Positions 22,170 to 59,486 of a stretch of 64,000 nt of DNA are shown one piece after another (position 1 is the first letter of the stretch; every line of letters starts with the position of its first letter). Where the stretch lies: assembly GCF_901933205.1 (NCBI RefSeq), contig NC_044574.1, positions 42,689,609-42,753,608 on the forward strand, given 5' to 3'. The position numbers were made by a program, and so were the translations under genes. The notes beneath the pieces were generated by a model that was not told the origin of the DNA, did not search any database, and worked only from the letters and a program-made list of their open reading frames with translations. Source of the DNA: Camarhynchus parvulus. Its lineage: Eukaryota; Chordata; Aves; Passeriformes; Thraupidae.

Positions 22170-23497
22170 GTAAGTAATTCTTAGTCAGAGATTATGTTGT
22201 ATTTTCGTTGTGACCATTAACTGGAAATAGCTGTTGATTTTTTTTTCCCGTGAACCTCTCTGTTATTCATTCAGTCTGTCAAGCATTAAATAGAATTTAC
22301 CTTTGGTATTTACAGCAGCTGGTGTAATGGCTGGTTTATCAGGATGCTCTTTAGAACAGTTGGAGATTTTTGGTACTCTCCTTGGTGGTACATGGAGATT
22401 GGCAATGGCCTCCATTTTCTTCCTGATGGATTTCTGCAATTGTAAATGAGGAGATAGGAAGCATGCTGTGAAAGTTTAAGTAAGTGTGACAGTCTGGCTC
22501 AAGTTAAAGCATTAACCATGCAAGGCATATCTCAGAGCAATACTTAAAATCAGAGAGTATTCAGAAGTTTCAGAGGATCTGCAAGAAGTGCTTCTGGCCA
22601 CCCCTCAAAAAACCAAACCAGAACCAACCGACCAAACAAAACCCCACATTGTCTCAAGTTAAGTGGAGAAGTCCAGATGAATGTTTGCAGGACCTTTGGA
22701 AAATATATTTAATCCATCTGGTTTTGTTATCATTTGTAAATGGAAATGGATTAGCTCCTGACAGTCCTTGGTCATAAAGAACCCTGTCCAGAGAGCCATA
22801 CATATTTGGTTCCTATGCAGAGCAGTGGGATCTGTGAGTCCACATAACAGCCTGATGATGCATCTGTAAGTGTAAGGTGGTAGATGGCAAGGTTTCATAC
22901 AAGCTTCATTAGTCAGGTCCTCCCATTTCCTTCTTTTGGGAAGAACAGTCCTCAGGGTGGAGATAGCACCCACTGTGTGGCCTTGGTAGAAAGCCTGAAT
23001 CTTTAGACAGCTTGTTCTTAAGCTAGCATCTGATGTATAAATGTTACAACAATGGTCACCCATGAACAGTAAGTTTATTAAAATACATTTTTTTTCAGAG
23101 AACTGCCACCTGTTTCATTCCTTGCTATAATGAATGCCTGTGTGTAGTGAAATTGCTCCCACAAGACTAATTTATAGGCATGTTTTTTCTGTATTTTAGA
23201 TCAGGGAGAAACAAGAGGCTATTATGTGATTTTTCTCTGTGGAGTTTTATAATACCAGTGTGATGAAAATCGAAGACTGCAGAAGTGAACAAACTGTATA
23301 GATTCATATTTTACTGAAGGGGCTCCAGGGATGGGAAGAAGGGACCATAAAAAGCCCAAGAATGTCAAACATCTGTGCAGCTTACATTTATTCCATTGAA
23401 TTTAACAGCATGCATTCTCCCCAGATGTTCTTGCCAATGTTTATGTTATCACTTCCATTTTTTTGGTTACACTTCTTGTTGTTGTTTCCATTTCTAG
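22170..23497 (+). other. intron 3 of window (1.3 kb)
   Basis: Intron from gtaagt to tttctag. A 134-codon minus-strand open frame spans 22659-23063, but it shows no recognisable domain. No repeat identified. Confidence 0.85.
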
Positions 23498-24517
23498 ATT
23501 CACTAGAAGTGGTTTCTTACAGAATTTGCTCCGGTGATCCGCATGGGAAGTTCTCTATCGACCCCCAGTTTGGCATTATCCGCACCAAGAAACAGCTTGA
23601 CCACGAAGCTCAGTCTGTTGTGGTGCTCACTGTTCAGTCACAGCTGGGTGACTCCCCCATCTACAGCAGCACTCAAGTCAACATATCTGTGACAGACATC
23701 AATGACAACCCTCCAGTGTTTCTTACCAAATCTGATAAAGTAACCATCTCACATACCCAGCCTCCTGGCACTGCTGTCTACATTGCTCATGCAGAAGACA
23801 AAGACAGTGGCCTAAATGGGGCAGTCAAATACAGCATTGCAAGCAAGCAGTCAGATGCATTTAGCATTGATCCAAGTCTCGGAGTGGTAAACCTTACCAG
23901 GACAGTGTTTGCGGAAAAGCAGCAGGAATATATTCTACATATAGCAGCCAAAGACTGTGGAAGTCCTCCTCTGACTTCTTTGTTGATGTTGACAGTGGTT
24001 ATTGAAGAGCAGAAGATGGGCCCTACTTTGGTTTTCCAAAGCTTGGTGTATCAAGTAGAAGTCAGTGAAGCTACTTCTCCAGGTGCCCAAATCCTTCAGG
24101 TTCAAGCCCACTCACTTGATCCACACAGCATTACCTCCAGCCTGATGTATTCCTTAGAGCCTAGCACTGATTCTGTTGCGTTTGGAATCAGCTCTGATAC
24201 TGGCTGGATTTATCTTCAGAAACATTTGAACTATGAATGCGCACAGATGCTGAGTTTTAGAGCCTTGGTCAGCATGTCTGAGGACGAAAACCTTAGGCAA
24301 AATGCAAGTACCTCTATAATAGTTAATGTCCTGGATGAAAATGATCATTCTCCCATGTTTTTGCGTGAGAGCTACTTCTTCGAAATTGAGGAAAATCTGA
24401 TTCCCAGTGGTGTGGTTGGCACGGTTACAGCTGTTGACAAAGACTCGGGAAGAAATGGACAGCTTTCCTATTTCCTCTTGTCTGATGGAAAGTATTTCAA
24501 GATGAATTCCAACACAG
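23498..24517 (+). CDS. DCHS2: DCHS2 large exon: about three cadherin repeats
   Basis: The 340-codon segment is phase 1 at both ends. The carried A plus AT gives NSLEVVSYRICSGD. It contains a repeat ending in the canonical linker DINDNPPVF (about 23696), a second ending in a non-canonical linker VVIEEQKMGPTLVF, a third ending in DENDHSPMF (about 24334), and the start of a fourth to MNSNTG. The donor is ACAG|gtagca at 24518. FSIDPQFGIIRTKKQLDHE and the following repeats match human DCHS2 in order. The weak middle linker would bind less calcium and may allow bending. Confidence 0.94.
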
Positions 24518-25886
24518 GTAGCATTTTATGATTTGTAATCTGCCTAATATTGCTTTTGGAAAGCAGCCTTCCCTAAGGGTACGGAAGTAAAGTATAAAGC
24601 TTCCAGAAATTGCTGTGAATCTTTTGGGTTGATATATGAACATTTTAACTTAGAGTGTCACTATTTGGGGAATGAAATAAATCCAATATATTTTCATGAA
24701 GAATGAACTAGCTCTTGGGATTTTTTTTTTTCATTACTTTGTTCAGGTCACTTGGTCATAAGTTTTGGTGTTTGGCTGAAACAAATTAAAAGGAAAAGTT
24801 TTAAGTTATAGCTTCAATAGTTCATGTGAGAAAAATTTTTGCCTGTGATCAAGTAGAGTTGAAAAGTACAAATCAGCCATAACTATAAAGGTACTTATGA
24901 AGTTAGACAAAGTGATTTAAAATACTTGTGAATGCTTCTGTAACTGATGTCAAAACTGAGTTCATGTTGTACACGGCATCAAAGAAGTCAAATTGGCTGA
25001 GAGAAATTTTTCACAGCATAGGGTGTACTCTGCAGTGAATCCCAAATGCCTCAAGTAATAGGGGTTATGTCTACACAGTATAACACCAGAGATCAGAGCA
25101 TGGAGAGCCTAAAGGAAGAGAATCCTTCAAGGGATACAGGCACCGTAAATAATCCAGTTTAGCAAAATTCCATGTAGGAAGCAATGATCTGCTGTTTAAA
25201 ATTCCTATTTCCAGATGTCCAGTCCCCATGGGGAGTGAATAGGCTTTCCCAGAATTTCTCTGTATGAAATTCCTAAATAAAAGCAGCTTTTGAGTACATT
25301 TATGGAACTTTATGGGCAAACAGATTACTAGGAGTTAACCAAGAAGGTTTTAAAAAACTATGTGGTTACCTGTGTGATGAGCTTTGGTCAACCGCAAATC
25401 TCCGCCTATATTGGGTATGGCTAAGCAGACAGGGAGAATATTGGTCAGATTTATTTGCTGGGTTTACCAGAATGTGTGGGAGACATAAGGGCTTATGATT
25501 AATGTACATAATTAATAAAGGCCCCTTGTCAGCACTTAAACCCCTATGCTCATGTGTTATCTGTCCTGGAGTGTGGTGAAGGCCAGATGGATTTCTTTGG
25601 AAGGTCAGCACTTTGGTTCATACTGTTTTATACCTTTGCTCTGGGGCACCCAGTGTACAGTAAAACAGGTCAATAGGGCACTAAAGTACACATGCAAAAC
25701 TGTGATTGACAGAATGCTTCTGCAGGATGGGGTTTGGAAAGCTGAGGTTTTCATGTCAGTGATCAGGTGTATCAGAGGGCATGTATTGTTATTTCACATT
25801 AAATTAAATGCATAATTGCATGCACCGAGTGCTAGCACACAATAAATGCCTAACTCCATTTCTCCCCCCTTTTCTTTGGCTGTCAG
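24518..25886 (+). other. intron 4 of window (1.4 kb)
   Basis: Intron from gtagca to the acceptor ggctgtcag, with a pyrimidine run tctcccccctttt before it. No repeat or exon recognised. Confidence 0.85.
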
Positions 25887-26062
25887 GTGAAATCATAAAC
25901 TGGGCGGCGCTGGACCGCGAGGAGCAGGCACACCATGAGCTGCGGGTGCTGGCGACGGACGCGGGGCAGCCCCAGCGCAGCGCCACAGCCACCGTGCACA
26001 TCGCCGTGCACGACCGCAATGACCACGCGCCGCGCTTCCTGCAGGGGGCGCTGCGCCGACAG
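25887..26062 (+). CDS. DCHS2: DCHS2 exon: GC-rich cadherin half-repeat with RNDHAP linker
   Basis: The carried G plus GT gives GEIINWAALDREEQ, then the strand LRVLATDAGQPQ, the linker HDRNDHAPRF and a short tail LQGALRRQ. It is 176 bases, phase 1 in and 0 out. I count G or C in 51 of 58 third codon positions, far above its AT-rich neighbours. The end is placed at CGACAG|gtgggg (26063) because the next exon starts in phase 0 with VLEGQ, as human DCHS2 does. The same 30-base exon tail and donor are then repeated several times downstream, so later donors at 26114, 26165, 26216, 26267 and 26318 are possible in the same frame, each adding 17 residues. Confidence 0.85.
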
Positions 26063-26390
26063 GTGGGGCGGGGCACTGCACTGCGCTTCCTGCAGGGGGT
26101 ACTGCACCAACAGGTGGGGCGGGGCACTGCACTGCGCTTCCTGCAGGGGGCGCTCCGCCAACAGGTGGGGCGGGGCACTGCACTGCGCTTCCTGCAGGGG
26201 GTACTGCACCAACAGGTGGGGCGGGGCACCGTGCAGTGCTTCCCGCAGGGGACGCTGCGCCGCCAGGTGGGGGGGGCACTGCACTGCCCTTCCCATAAAG
26301 GGGCGCTATGCCGACAGGTGGGGCGGGGCACCGTGCTTCCCACAGGGGGCGCTGTGCCAACAGGTGGGGTGGGACACCGTGCAGCACCGC
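26033..26390 (+). repeat. 51-bp minisatellite copying an exon end and its splice donor
   Basis: The 30 bases at the end of the preceding exon (26033-26062) are followed by units of gtggggcggggcactgca plus a copy of that exon tail: 26063-26113, 26114-26164, 26165-26215, 26216-26266 and 26267-26317 (all 51 bp), 26318-26363 (46 bp) and a decayed partial unit to about 26390. The first three differ at a few sites; later ones diverge more. Every full unit ends in CAG followed by gtgggg. Since 51 is 17 codons, the frame stays open through the array. The unit also carries runs of four and five G, suitable for G-quadruplex folding. Confidence 0.93.
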
Positions 26391-26740
26391 CCTGTGGCCA
26401 CACTGCTCACTGCAGGTCCTTCCGAACTGGGGAGCTGCACACAGCCAGATCTGAAGAATTGCACAAGACTAACTCTGTTCACGTGTGCGCTGGAATTCCT
26501 TTTGGTTTCTGACCTCTGACCATAGTAAAGATGTTCGAGTTAGTGCTCTATGCAGACTGTGACAGAGGATTGCTAGAACTCTGTTGTTTAACCATCTCCT
26601 GAAATGCTCATTGAACACTAAATATTACTGAAATGGAAAGTAGTGCAGCAGCTAAACTCTTGTGTTATGGCAAGGGATTTGTTTTAAGATGGGTTTATCC
26701 ACGTATAATTTCAAATCATTTATGAACTGCTTGGTGACAG
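26063..26740 (+). other. intron 5 of window (0.7 kb)
   Basis: The first half is the minisatellite; the rest is ordinary AT-rich sequence. The acceptor at 26740 (cttggtgacag) has a poor pyrimidine tract. An in-frame TGA at 26735-26737 means the exon cannot begin before 26738. Confidence 0.85.
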
Positions 26741-26840
26741 GTTTTGGAAGGGCAGCCATCAGGGACACTTGTTGCCACCATCTTTGCAAAAGACTTCGAT
26801 TCTGGAAACAACGGTGTTGTATTATATTCAATAGAATCAG
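26741..26840 (+). CDS. DCHS2: DCHS2 short exon: cadherin repeat start
   Basis: This 100-base segment encodes VLEGQPSGTLVATIFAKD followed by a DSGNNGVVLYSIES strand, the first half of a cadherin repeat with the calcium-binding D-S-G-N-N block. It is phase 0 in and 1 out; the donor is TCAG|gtaaga at 26841. Human DCHS2 reads VLEGQPVNMLVTTVFAKD here by recall. No open frame of more than about 35 codons covers it, so it is easily missed by ORF scans. Confidence 0.9.
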
Positions 26841-29800
26841 GTAAGAATTTCAAGGGTTAATTAATACAAAAAGGTACATTAAAATAACTAGCATTTTAGA
26901 AAAGCCATGTATCATGCAAGATTTTATGTTTATTTTGTGTCAGGTAGAATAAAGCTGCCTTTGTAAATAGGAATCAGCACCACCATGTGTCTTATGAAGT
27001 ATTTAATGAAGCGCAAGCAGCTGCCTTTCCTTCCTTTGCTCTCTGTCCCATCTTTCATGTGGTTTGGTTGCTTCTGTGGCTGGCCAGAGAGTGTTCAAAC
27101 AGCTCTCAGAAAGGACTAGGACCATGATCTTTTACTGTACAGTTTAGTATTTCAGTCAGTTTAACATCTTAAAGGAAAAATTAACTCCCTTTTCCCATGA
27201 CCAGTTGAAAATTTTCCTGCTAAAATAACAGTTTGTGACAGTCTGAGACAGGGATCAGAGGGATCAGCAGATAATCTGGGCAAACAATGAGGTTTGTGGG
27301 TTTTAGTTCAGGTTTCACCCTTTGTTTAATGTCAGTGTGTTAACCTGACATAGTGTGGCCCCTTAAAAACACTTCTCTTTAGTTTTCCCCATAATTCCTA
27401 CATGTAATAGTTCACTTCTGGGGTAAGTGGTAGGATCCAGTTTTGTTTGCAGTGAAATTAATAACAGAGCAGTCCCAAGTTAGAACATGAGTGGGACTGG
27501 GGCATTAATACTGGTAGGAGACATAGATGTGATGTCTGTATTTGCTGCGTACCACTTGCTATGCTTCCATAAAAGTGAGAACTCCATCGATAACCAGGAA
27601 GAAAAACAGGTCTTTTCTTCCTGCTTTCGTTCACTATTGCTTCAAAACAGTAAGAGTTCCCAGGAACAGGAGTATTTACTTTTTTGTTTGGTTTCTGTTC
27701 TATTCTACCAGTTTTATGTAATCAATACTTTTTAAGCTTGGGATTTGTAATCTATGGTAAGTTGCATATAGATCTTACAGTTTCATCAGAGCAAGAAAAC
27801 ATAATTCCCTTAATTTGAATATAAATGACTGCCTGTTCCAGAGGGAATTGGATGGTATCTTAGACTTCTGCATAGTGAGTAAGAATATTTTGCACAAAAA
27901 AGTTCCCCCTTGTTAAAAAGGGAACGACTAATGTGCAACCCTTTGTTTGAAGAGTGATAGCCAGGCAATACAGTAAGTGTTTTTCAGGGGTCTCTGCCTG
28001 TTCGTGTATCTAACTATATCCCCTTCCTTCAAACAGCACATTGGATTTTCTTACTGGCTTCACTGTAGAGCCCCCAGAGGGGAATAAGTAAGAGTTCAAA
28101 TTATAAAAATGACTAGCAACACAAAATATGACTAGTCTTGCAAAAGCCGTCTCTGGAAAGAACAAAAACATAAAAACAGCAGCAAACACACCCCCATCTC
28201 CCCCCATTTCAAATGCAAAAAAACCACTAAAAATCCCTCCCAGCCTTGGAACTAGATGTTTTCCTGATAAACAAATCCAGAAACAGCTGAGCTTCTCTGA
28301 TACTAATTTTTGTTGTTGTTAGTTGGCTCACAGCCTTTAACATCTGGTCTTCTGTTTCTTGGTGAAGTTTTTGCCTGGTTTATATTTTAAATAGTACTTT
28401 CTTGTTCTGGGACACTGTTTGGTACTTAAATATGAAGAAGAAACATGATCTGATTTACAGCTATATTTGTTAAACAGAGAGACAGCAGGTTAGTTGGAGA
28501 ACTCCATGCAGACCAGTGCTCCATTCTTCAGTCATGGGGCTGCCACAAGATGGAGAGCTGCAAGTGTCAGTGTCAGCTGTGAAGCTTATAAATGTTGCTG
28601 GGTAATTTTTAATGTTCTTGAGATCATAAAGAAATTTCAAGATAGGAGCAATATATTAAGCTATTAGGAATGTTAATGACAAATGCCAACAAAATACATG
28701 AGGGCAAATCTGTAAAAGAACTATGAGGTTTACACACTAGATGAATTTTAGGTTACAGGGAAGTGTTTCCTTCAAAACGCCCCTTCCTCTTCCTAGAAAA
28801 TCAAAGCAAACCATCCTTTAAAAATGTATATGCATGGAAGTGGGTGGTCTCATGACCCTACTTCCACTTCTGTGCTATCACTAATTCAGAGGGATTTAAT
28901 CCCAGTTGTGTGTACTGTTTATTCCTTAGTGATGCTGGCAGTCGGAAAGTGATTTGCCTGGTCTGCTTATTACTGTCAATAGGATATAGTATAGCATTTA
29001 TAACAGAAATTAGTATTTATAGGGCATCTGGAACTACTGCTTTGTGTGTTAAGTCTAGCATTGACAGAGGCTTTTGCAGTTATATTTGGAGCAATTACGT
29101 GAATGCAACATTAGCCCTTGACTACACAAGTGCCAAGAGAAGCCTAGTTACACTGCTAACATGGACAAATTGGGAAGTGCTGTCCATGTGTCTGTGAAGT
29201 CCTTGTTCTCCAGAATGGCCTGCAAGCAGTGTGTAGGGAGCATTTATAGACTTGCAAAGGGCTACATTTCTGCACAAGCCCTGATCATGTTCAGGTTCTT
29301 TGGGAACCATGGCCTTGCCTTCCTCCTTTCTGTTAAAGGGAGCAACTTTTCCATCATCTCAAAGGAGAAGGACATGGTCAGGGCACTAAGTATTTTAACG
29401 CCTAGGAAAGGAACAGTTGTTCAGGAAATTAGGTGAAAATACGTAGCTAACTATGACTGTGTGCTGAGGTCACTAATCTCTGAGAAATCTCTAGTGTTAT
29501 TTTCTGTCTGCTTTCTGGGCCATTTTGCCTAAATGACAGTTTCTGTAAGGCCTGAATGTTCAGCCAGCCAAAGTTCACAGTAACACATTGCTTGGTGTTT
29601 CTGAGGGCACCACTGGTTTTTTCTTTTTGGTTCTAAACTACAATTTCTCTGATCATCTTTGAGAGCACAGAGCTGAAAGAGTGTTTGAGTTTTGGGGAAC
29701 CTCATGTAAATGAAAGTCTGGCTGACAGTTGGACAAGACAGAGGTGAAAAATTTAATTGTAAAAACATGTATTTATTAGCAGGTTACTTCTGCAAGCTCA

Positions 29801-39989: not shown

Positions 39990-41252
39990 GTAAGTTATAT
40001 TCCATCATTTTGTTAGTATAAATCAGGGAAATATTTATACAGCAGCATCCAAGTTTTAGGCTAGTCTTGATTTTACCAGGCCTCCTAAGCTCCCATCTTG
40101 TCCACATGCTTCTTTTATGTGGAAAAGAAAAGAGATCTTTCACCCTTTTGTAAGCACTAATAAGCACTTCCCAGGCATACTTTCATTCTGCGTTCTGGAT
40201 TTGAAATAGTGCAGAACAGAGAAACACAAAAAAAATACCAAATGCTGGAATGAGGCATTAATCATGAAGGCATAATTTTTGTCCATTTTGTTATAGTTTT
40301 AGAAGTCTGAATGTAAATATTCCCTTGAAAATATACCCAAGAAATAATTGAAATTTATTTATTTAATGCCATTTATTAAATTTTATTTTGTGAGAGCTTC
40401 TTTCACCCAGCAATTAGTAATGTCATACTTGGCTTCCATCTTGCCAAACTCTCCCTGTGTCCACTATGCCAATGTAAGCTCCACAACTGTTCAAAGCCTC
40501 CTGTAGTATCTTTGGACAAGTACAAGTTTGCAGTGCTTTCTTTGGGTTGTGGCTGTCAGCAATAGCTCAAATATGGGCAGAGAGCTACTGTGGTTAAAAC
40601 CAACACATTTTTATTTGAAGAAACAGTTATGAGTTCCTTTGTTTTCTTGGTTTTAATGTTGTGATCTCTATGACATTTAATTTAGTTACCTTTGGTCTTT
40701 CTGCATGTTATAAACTATGTAAGCCATTCACTGTTACTAAAAATGCTGGCTTTTCAGTTGATTGCTTCATATTTATTCCCAGTGCTCCCAAATCATGACC
40801 TTGCCCAGCTCTTGAATTCTAAGAGATAGGTTTGTAGAAGAGAACTAGGTGCAAGCAATTACAATTGTCAGCAATGCTTTATAGAGTTGTGGAATTTGTA
40901 ACTAAGGTTGTGGAATTTGTAACTAAGGTTGGGAAGAGGTCACTTCATGGAGCAGCGCAGACGCATGAGATTTTATAAGGTGGGCTGGTTTGGGAACAAA
41001 AGATATGCATCTGGCCAAAAGGCCAGTCTGTAAATTGTTATGACATTCTGCATTTCCTATCACTGCCACTCACTGATTTAAATGAAACACAGGTTTTAAT
41101 TTGTATGAGAAATATAATATGTGAAAGGCACACGAGCACACCAGCTCTATGAGCAATTGGACCTTGTTACTGCAATTAGCATAGAATATTCACAAGGGTT
41201 CTTTTTTAAAAGTAGTTTTTTGTGATCATTTCATTTTTTATGTGTTTGAAAG
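39990..41252 (+). other. intron 11 of window (1.3 kb)
   Basis: Intron from gtaagt to tgtttgaaag. Apart from a 21-bp direct duplication (40886-40927) I see nothing in it. Confidence 0.85.
40886..40927 (+). repeat. 21-bp tandem duplication
   Basis: Two exact adjacent copies of gttgtggaatttgtaactaa+g, at 40886-40906 and 40907-40927. Intronic; most likely a recent slippage duplication that could vary between individuals. Confidence 0.9.
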
Positions 41253-59274: not shown

Positions 59275-59444
59275 GTGAGTCTGCATGGTTTATTATTTCA
59301 GCTTTTTAAGTATAAATCAAAGAGTCCTATTCCTTTCTCACCTGTTGCCAGTGATTACTTGACTTCTGGAAATTTGTGGTGGCCAAAGTCCACTGTGTTT
59401 TTGCTAAATCTGCCATTATCAGTGAGGAACCATCACATCAAAGA

Positions 59445-59486
59445 CTGGAGTTCTCAGTTTTTCCACTGGAGTTCTCAGTTTTTCCC
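59445..59486 (+). repeat. 21-bp tandem duplication
   Basis: Two adjacent copies of ctggagttctcagtttttcc plus one base, 59445-59465 and 59466-59486, differing only at the last base. Intronic. Confidence 0.9.

Follow-up and report, generated by a model that had tools for sequence, protein, structure and literature searches.

In Camarhynchus parvulus, the end of a coding exon of DCHS2 has been multiplied together with its splice donor in a 51-bp minisatellite that runs on into the following intron, and the exon concerned is the outlier among 20 exons of the gene for GC-favouring amino-acid change in oscines. This neighbourhood, the GC-shifted exon, is more telling than the array itself. In the account that we regard as probable, a focus of GC-biased recombination would have shaped the exon, the array would have arisen later as a by-product, and the first of the multiplied donors would still be the one mostly used. 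Coordinates refer to the window, the whole 64,000-nucleotide stretch of DNA that was analysed, and all exons, donors and repeat units described below lie on its + strand.

Dachsous-2 (DCHS2) is a giant adhesion protein. The cadherin exons of the window find their best match in bird protocadherin-23/DCHS2, judged from the top named rows among the matches listed in a protein search, and the bird matches listed are called protocadherin-23 wherever they are fully named. On this similarity we take the gene carrying the array to be passerine DCHS2 (protocadherin-23). It is set apart from its paralogue DCHS1 by the presence of a separate DCHS1-like locus on contig C1 (L002). In this latter gene, named by resemblance (L002:1-3076), an intron follows a linker whose last residue is Gln, at an equivalent position. 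The nearest protein among the matches listed, from Geospiza parvula (P0001), bears the record title 'uncharacterized protein' and shows 32 mismatches over 2269 exon-core residues; protocadherin-23 of Agelaius tricolor (P0002) shows 108 mismatches over 2234, both counts omitting exon 25887-26062.

This exon of 176 nt (25887..26062), placed by its reading frame and by protocadherin-23 homology, encodes GEIINWAALDREE...RNDHAPRFLQGALRRQ, the latter half of a cadherin repeat together with the first residues of the linker after it. An intron of 1369 nt (24518-25886) precedes it, following an upstream exon at 23497..24517 (its start estimated by tblastn, its donor at 24518), and an intron of 678 nt separates it from the next exon (VLEGQPSGTLVATIFAKDFDSGNNGVVLYSIES; 26741..26840), which is AT-rich (GC3 of 0.32, computed on 26741-26842). 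The acceptor of this next exon, at 26740, has few pyrimidines (8 in 17 positions), and there is thus room for unusual donor choice. The reading frame of exon 25887-26062 continues into the intron until a stop at 26510, so that a transcript keeping the whole intron would encode a truncated protein.

The minisatellite occupies 26032..26377, where Tandem Repeats Finder reports 6.9 copies of a 51-bp unit (score 424, 80% matches), and it starts inside the last 31 nt of the exon. Its units lie head to tail and fall within the size range of minisatellites, roughly 10-100 bp. The identity of segment 26033-26390 to itself at a lag of 51 is 0.704. In 300 dinucleotide shuffles of the same segment, with lags of 5 to 159 considered, the best identity did not exceed 0.443; the periodicity is far beyond chance. 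A first-pass annotation, made from the DNA letters, had described the unit as the final 30 nt of the exon with the 21 intronic nt that follow, and our analysis agrees, with the later units having drifted. The 17-residue pattern that it gave for the translated unit, VGRGTALRFLQGVLHQQ, is exact in units 1 and 3 (the exon copy being numbered unit 0), but unit 2 is slightly different and the later units have drifted away from it. When the exon plus array was searched against the genome, in a search that passes over simple repeats and words of very high frequency, the matches were the query locus itself and 76 bases of the DCHS1-like gene, with no further copies of the array. Two short 21-bp tandem repeats are found elsewhere in the window, at 40886-40935 (2.4 copies) and 59444-59485 (2.0 copies).

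Each unit brings with it a copy of the exon's donor, CAG|GTGGGG. The first (26063..26068) closes the exon and is the predicted main site, giving the linker of eight residues found in 21 passerine models; the copies at 26114..26119, 26165..26170, 26216..26221, 26267..26272 and 26318..26323 are in frame with it and would add 17, 34, 51, 68 and 85 residues, respectively. The earlier claims of six donors in a single frame and of in-frame steps of 17 residues both hold, as the frame is open through all six and joining donors one to six to the next exon yields 0 to 85 added residues. A seventh identical donor, absent from the first-pass annotation, is present at 26364..26369, 46 nt past the sixth owing to a 5-nt loss; its use would add 301 nt and would therefore shift the frame of the next exon. 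All seven share the same nine bases. They score 8.24 on an approximate donor matrix, which ranks 8 of 18 other DCHS2 donor sites above them, and their computed U1 pairing of -10.8 kcal/mol is surpassed at 2 of these 18, the comparison sites being the best-scoring GTs near tblastn ends, a few of which are probably not the true donors.

The linker, taken as the stretch between the NDxxPxF motif and the VLEGQ of the next exon, was looked for in 172 proteins from three protein searches, the first two of which gave the best 120 of 2387 and the best 120 of 203 matches. This cross-species comparison is one of protein models, mostly gene models whose support by transcripts is not known, clustered at 90% identity, and it is for this reason weak evidence on real transcripts. 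Ordinary linkers were read in 112 proteins, with 8 residues in 28 (21 passerines and seven lizards or snakes) and 12 residues in 84 (one passerine, P0010, together with the remaining birds and the turtles and mammals that could be read). Four models have longer linkers (P0018, P0041, P0064 and P0102), one is aberrant and lacks the motif (P0001), and 55 fell outside the search pattern, many of these being DCHS1 or other cadherins and a few DCHS2. The window's own linker, 26039-26062 when spliced at 26063, has eight residues, like those of other passerines.

No linker lengthened by a 17-residue step was seen among the 172 proteins, and the unit's peptides GTALRF, RFLQG, GVLHQQ and GALRQQ are absent from all of them. 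VGRGT closes a partial model from Cercotrichas, a robin-chat relative (P0161), that reads into the intron, and a fish cadherin (P0167) has it by chance; VGWGT is present in P0064 and DRWGG in P0001. In the tit Pseudopodoces humilis (P0010), VLEGQ is preceded by four additional residues, LSSR, for which neither end of the intron in the window offers a match. In the starling Lamprotornis superbus, a read-through model (P0064) carries 40 extra residues, equal to 120 nt, where the window has 119 nt from the last donor to 'NSVH' and 420 nt from the first; both ends of this insert match the window, and its middle aligns no better than shuffles do, 59 of 200 reaching the observed score. The length and the matching ends hint at a starling intron that lacks the array. 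The Geospiza parvula model P0001 contains GRYADRWGGAPCFPQGALCQQ, a run of 21 residues that 26301-26363 (units 5-6) encodes identically in another frame, and its exon ends at the equivalent of the seventh donor. It arrives there by way of a SATAT|gtgcac donor that scores -3.6 on the window's sequence and, given this entry donor, we take the exon end as a probable modelling artefact rather than as evidence that the seventh donor is used.

Consideration of how identical donors are resolved gives further insight into the likely behavior of the array. In a minigene study (PMC9225289), five minigenes with two identical donors, spliced by exon definition with flanking introns of 365 nt, used the upstream donor exclusively; weakening both donors led to skipping of the larger exons. 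The same study cites the reverse, a preference for the downstream donor, under intron definition. Given the upstream-only choice in these minigenes and flanking introns of 1369 and 678 nt in DCHS2, the donor at 26063 would be expected to dominate. Our analysis indicates that splicing most likely takes place mainly at this site, with the array donors serving at most as minor in-frame alternatives; such minor use may occur, considering that the seven donors are predicted to be equally strong, the downstream preference in intron definition and the repeat-unit donors of IFI6 discussed below. The earlier suggestion that the later donors could be used was not borne out, as the peptides of the unit occur in none of the 172 proteins and the minigene results for exon definition are upstream-only. 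Spelled out, this suggestion is that the copies produce a ladder of DCHS2 isoforms, with 17, 34, 51, 68 or 85 extra linker residues between two cadherin repeats, and that copy-number alleles alter the ladder. Seven identical donors of fair score and strong U1 pairing, five of them intronic, in frame and free of stops, speak for such a ladder; however, the missing peptides, even though the 90% clustering of the models may hide an array-bearing relative, the exclusively upstream resolution of identical donors reported for exon definition in PMC9225289, and the frame shift at the last donor make it distinctly unlikely in our judgement.

The first-pass annotation had further proposed that an acceptor-like cttcctgcag carried by the units could yield 18-base microexons. 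This motif is exact in the exon and in units 1-3, but the other three units have variants of it, and the stretch from its AG to the next donor measures 18 nt in six cases but 17 nt in one. The acceptor-like AGs of the array have 10-12 pyrimidines in 17 positions. The shortest distance from a donor to such an AG is 33 nt (26063-26095), and the next is 84 nt. Vertebrate introns are longer than 33 nt; microexons are thus unlikely, because the shortest internal intron would fall below this size, and we rejected them as probable products of the array.

A donor-bearing minisatellite has a precedent in IFI6, although the minisatellite unit of that gene is 12 bp, against 51 bp in DCHS2. In PMC4526556, two downstream repeat units of human IFI6 are described as splice donors, with three mRNA species. 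The multiplied exon end and donor of DCHS2 are real and resemble this case in that minisatellite units carry splice donors, here as seven identical copies of a consensus site. They differ from it in belonging to another gene and another vertebrate class and in adjoining a GC-shifted cadherin coding exon, and donor use in DCHS2 is predicted from the DNA. Within the partial texts covered, IFI6 was the sole earlier case of a donor-bearing minisatellite found, with no second case, and among papers joining DCHS2 and minisatellites, judged by title and the start of the abstract, none was on such an array. The gain of an intron by tandem duplication in potato RdRp (PMC4974935) also resembles DCHS2, in that the duplicated segment includes a donor and an acceptor-like AG; in DCHS2, however, it is the existing intron that has gained donor copies. 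Seven identical donors in one transcript constitute a natural test of identical-donor choice.

The exon and array together lie in a GC/CpG island (25901..26400) with a GC content of 0.728, 44 CpG and a CpG observed/expected ratio of 0.67, where 635 segments of 500 bp from the whole window have a mean GC of 0.385 (sd 0.052) and 2.6 CpG. The exon has a GC3 of 0.88 and a fourfold-site GC of 0.91, and GC3 in the 19 other exons is 0.20-0.47. The CpG ratio is about 0.5 in the intronic units (26100-26399), compared with about 0.8-1.0 in the exon; the lower value in these units fits methylation and decay rather than an island that is unmethylated throughout.

To follow this shift at the protein level we used the amino acids G, A, R and P (GARP) and F, Y, M, I, N and K (FYMINK) as a proxy for GC-directed substitution, so that the rise in GC of the exon is read from relatives' proteins plus one genome. 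Consensus sequences were made from sets hand-picked from the best 120 of 2387 matches: 16 from oscines, 4 from suboscines, 40 from birds other than passerines and 8 from turtles or crocodilians. Lizards and mammals were all left out, as were the passerine models P0001, P0018, P0021, P0064 and P0065 and certain non-passerine models that were partial or alternative. Going from the consensus of non-passerine birds to that of oscines, exon 25887-26062 changed at 18 of 64 residues (28%), with a gain of nine GARP and a loss of five FYMINK residues. The 19 other exons changed at 2-15% of residues with GARP shifts of -2 to +3, and a FYMINK loss of five was seen in only one of them, over 344 residues. 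The region of exon 25887-26062 ranks top of 324 sliding windows. The four suboscines are intermediate at this exon (+5 GARP, -3 FYMINK), and the shift is seen individually in every one of the 16 oscines (GARP +3 to +11, FYMINK -4 to -6), with the rest of each protein losing GARP. Between turtles plus crocodilians and non-passerine birds the exon is no outlier, with 27% of its residues changed (9-34% in the others) and a GARP gain of five (eight in another exon). The GC-directed change is present in 16 of 16 oscines and the ordinary 8-residue linker in 15 of 16, which suggests that the change precedes the array or is independent of it.

According to two studies (PMC4878770; PMC12047795), passerine recombination concentrates at CpG islands with a GC bias, and birds are without PRDM9. 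Because the GC-directed change in DCHS2 is confined to one exon and its border, and passerine recombination is of this kind, we propose a local focus of GC-biased gene conversion, and we think that this account probably holds as a whole, with recombination and gene conversion as the cause and with the order of events and donor choice that follow. The island of about 500 bp would act as a focus of recombination with GC-biased repair, and the exon would have gained GC-coded amino acids in oscines, to the point that nearly all of its silent sites are G or C here. Later, a stretch of 51 bp across the exon-intron border would have been tandemly duplicated by slippage or unequal exchange, in the lineage of Camarhynchus parvulus and, from one model, of Geospiza parvula. 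The RNA of the array folds with a z score of -4.54, none of 100 shuffles being as stable, and adjacent units pair; this strong self-pairing means that the unit comes close to being self-complementary. As DNA, such a unit would be prone to slippage, and its self-complementarity and its GC-richness may both have helped the duplication. The first donor, 26063, would remain the one mostly used, with exon definition resolving the identical donors towards the upstream 3' splice site.

Minisatellites are frequent in vertebrate introns, and the array could be an ordinary one, made by replication slippage and without any link to recombination, beside an exon that gained GC through relaxed constraint or as an internal CpG island. 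The CpG ratio of about 1.0 reached in the exon, as in an unmethylated regulatory island, agrees with this reading, and it is possible that the GC/CpG island is an internal promoter or enhancer. However, the array coincides exactly with the single outlier of 20 exons in both GC3 and amino-acid change, and relaxed constraint alone would not drive change towards GC-coded residues; we therefore hold the ordinary-minisatellite reading to be unlikely. That the repeat was collapsed or falsely expanded during assembly is hardly credible. The species is represented by one assembly, but the units differ from each other, the contig exceeds 42 Mb, and P0001 has the 21 residues identical to a reading of units 5-6; with 32 differences in 2269 core residues, P0001 comes from another bird. 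A GC-biased recombination focus, our preferred explanation, resembles the narrow, GC/CpG-rich passerine foci with GC-directed substitution in collared flycatcher (PMC4878770) and zebra finch (PMC12047795), and differs from them in that recombination at the DCHS2 site is deduced from composition only. A single GC-shifted exon beside an array offers a clean test of biased gene conversion versus selection in the fast protein change of songbirds.

The relations among the units bear on how the exon end and the array have influenced one another. Units 0, 1 and 2 differ pairwise at 2-4 positions, and units 5-6 differ from these three at 11-20; unit 5 has 16-20 differences from all others and unit 6 has 9-16. 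An age gradient along the array is imperfect, because unit 3 has 8 differences from the exon copy and unit 4, farther along, has 5. Unit 3 looks mosaic, its left part equalling unit 1 and its right end matching units 5 and 6 as far as those extend. A CTG (Leu) codon is common to units 0-3, and units 4-6 have CCG or CCA. In the exon this codon (26039-26041) is CTG, where 107 of 112 readable relatives have Pro and none has Leu; the remaining five, all lizards or snakes, have Ser, Ala or Thr. As the units on the exon side are the most alike, the last ten codons of the exon belong to the array, with which they have changes (P to L) in common. The alignment of the units places the exon end on the more uniform side of the array, with a change common to intronic copies; either the array may have converted the exon, or a changed exon may have seeded the array. 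A bolder reading is that of a living minisatellite at a hotspot, in which conversion between intron and exon rewrites the last ten codons, the P to L change having already happened, and copy-number alleles feed an in-frame donor ladder. We judge this to be very unlikely; if true, meiotic repair would directly tune a songbird adhesion protein, with the linker of Dachsous-2 growing in steps of 17 residues. Several of the differences from unit to unit look like changes of CpG to TpG or CpA.
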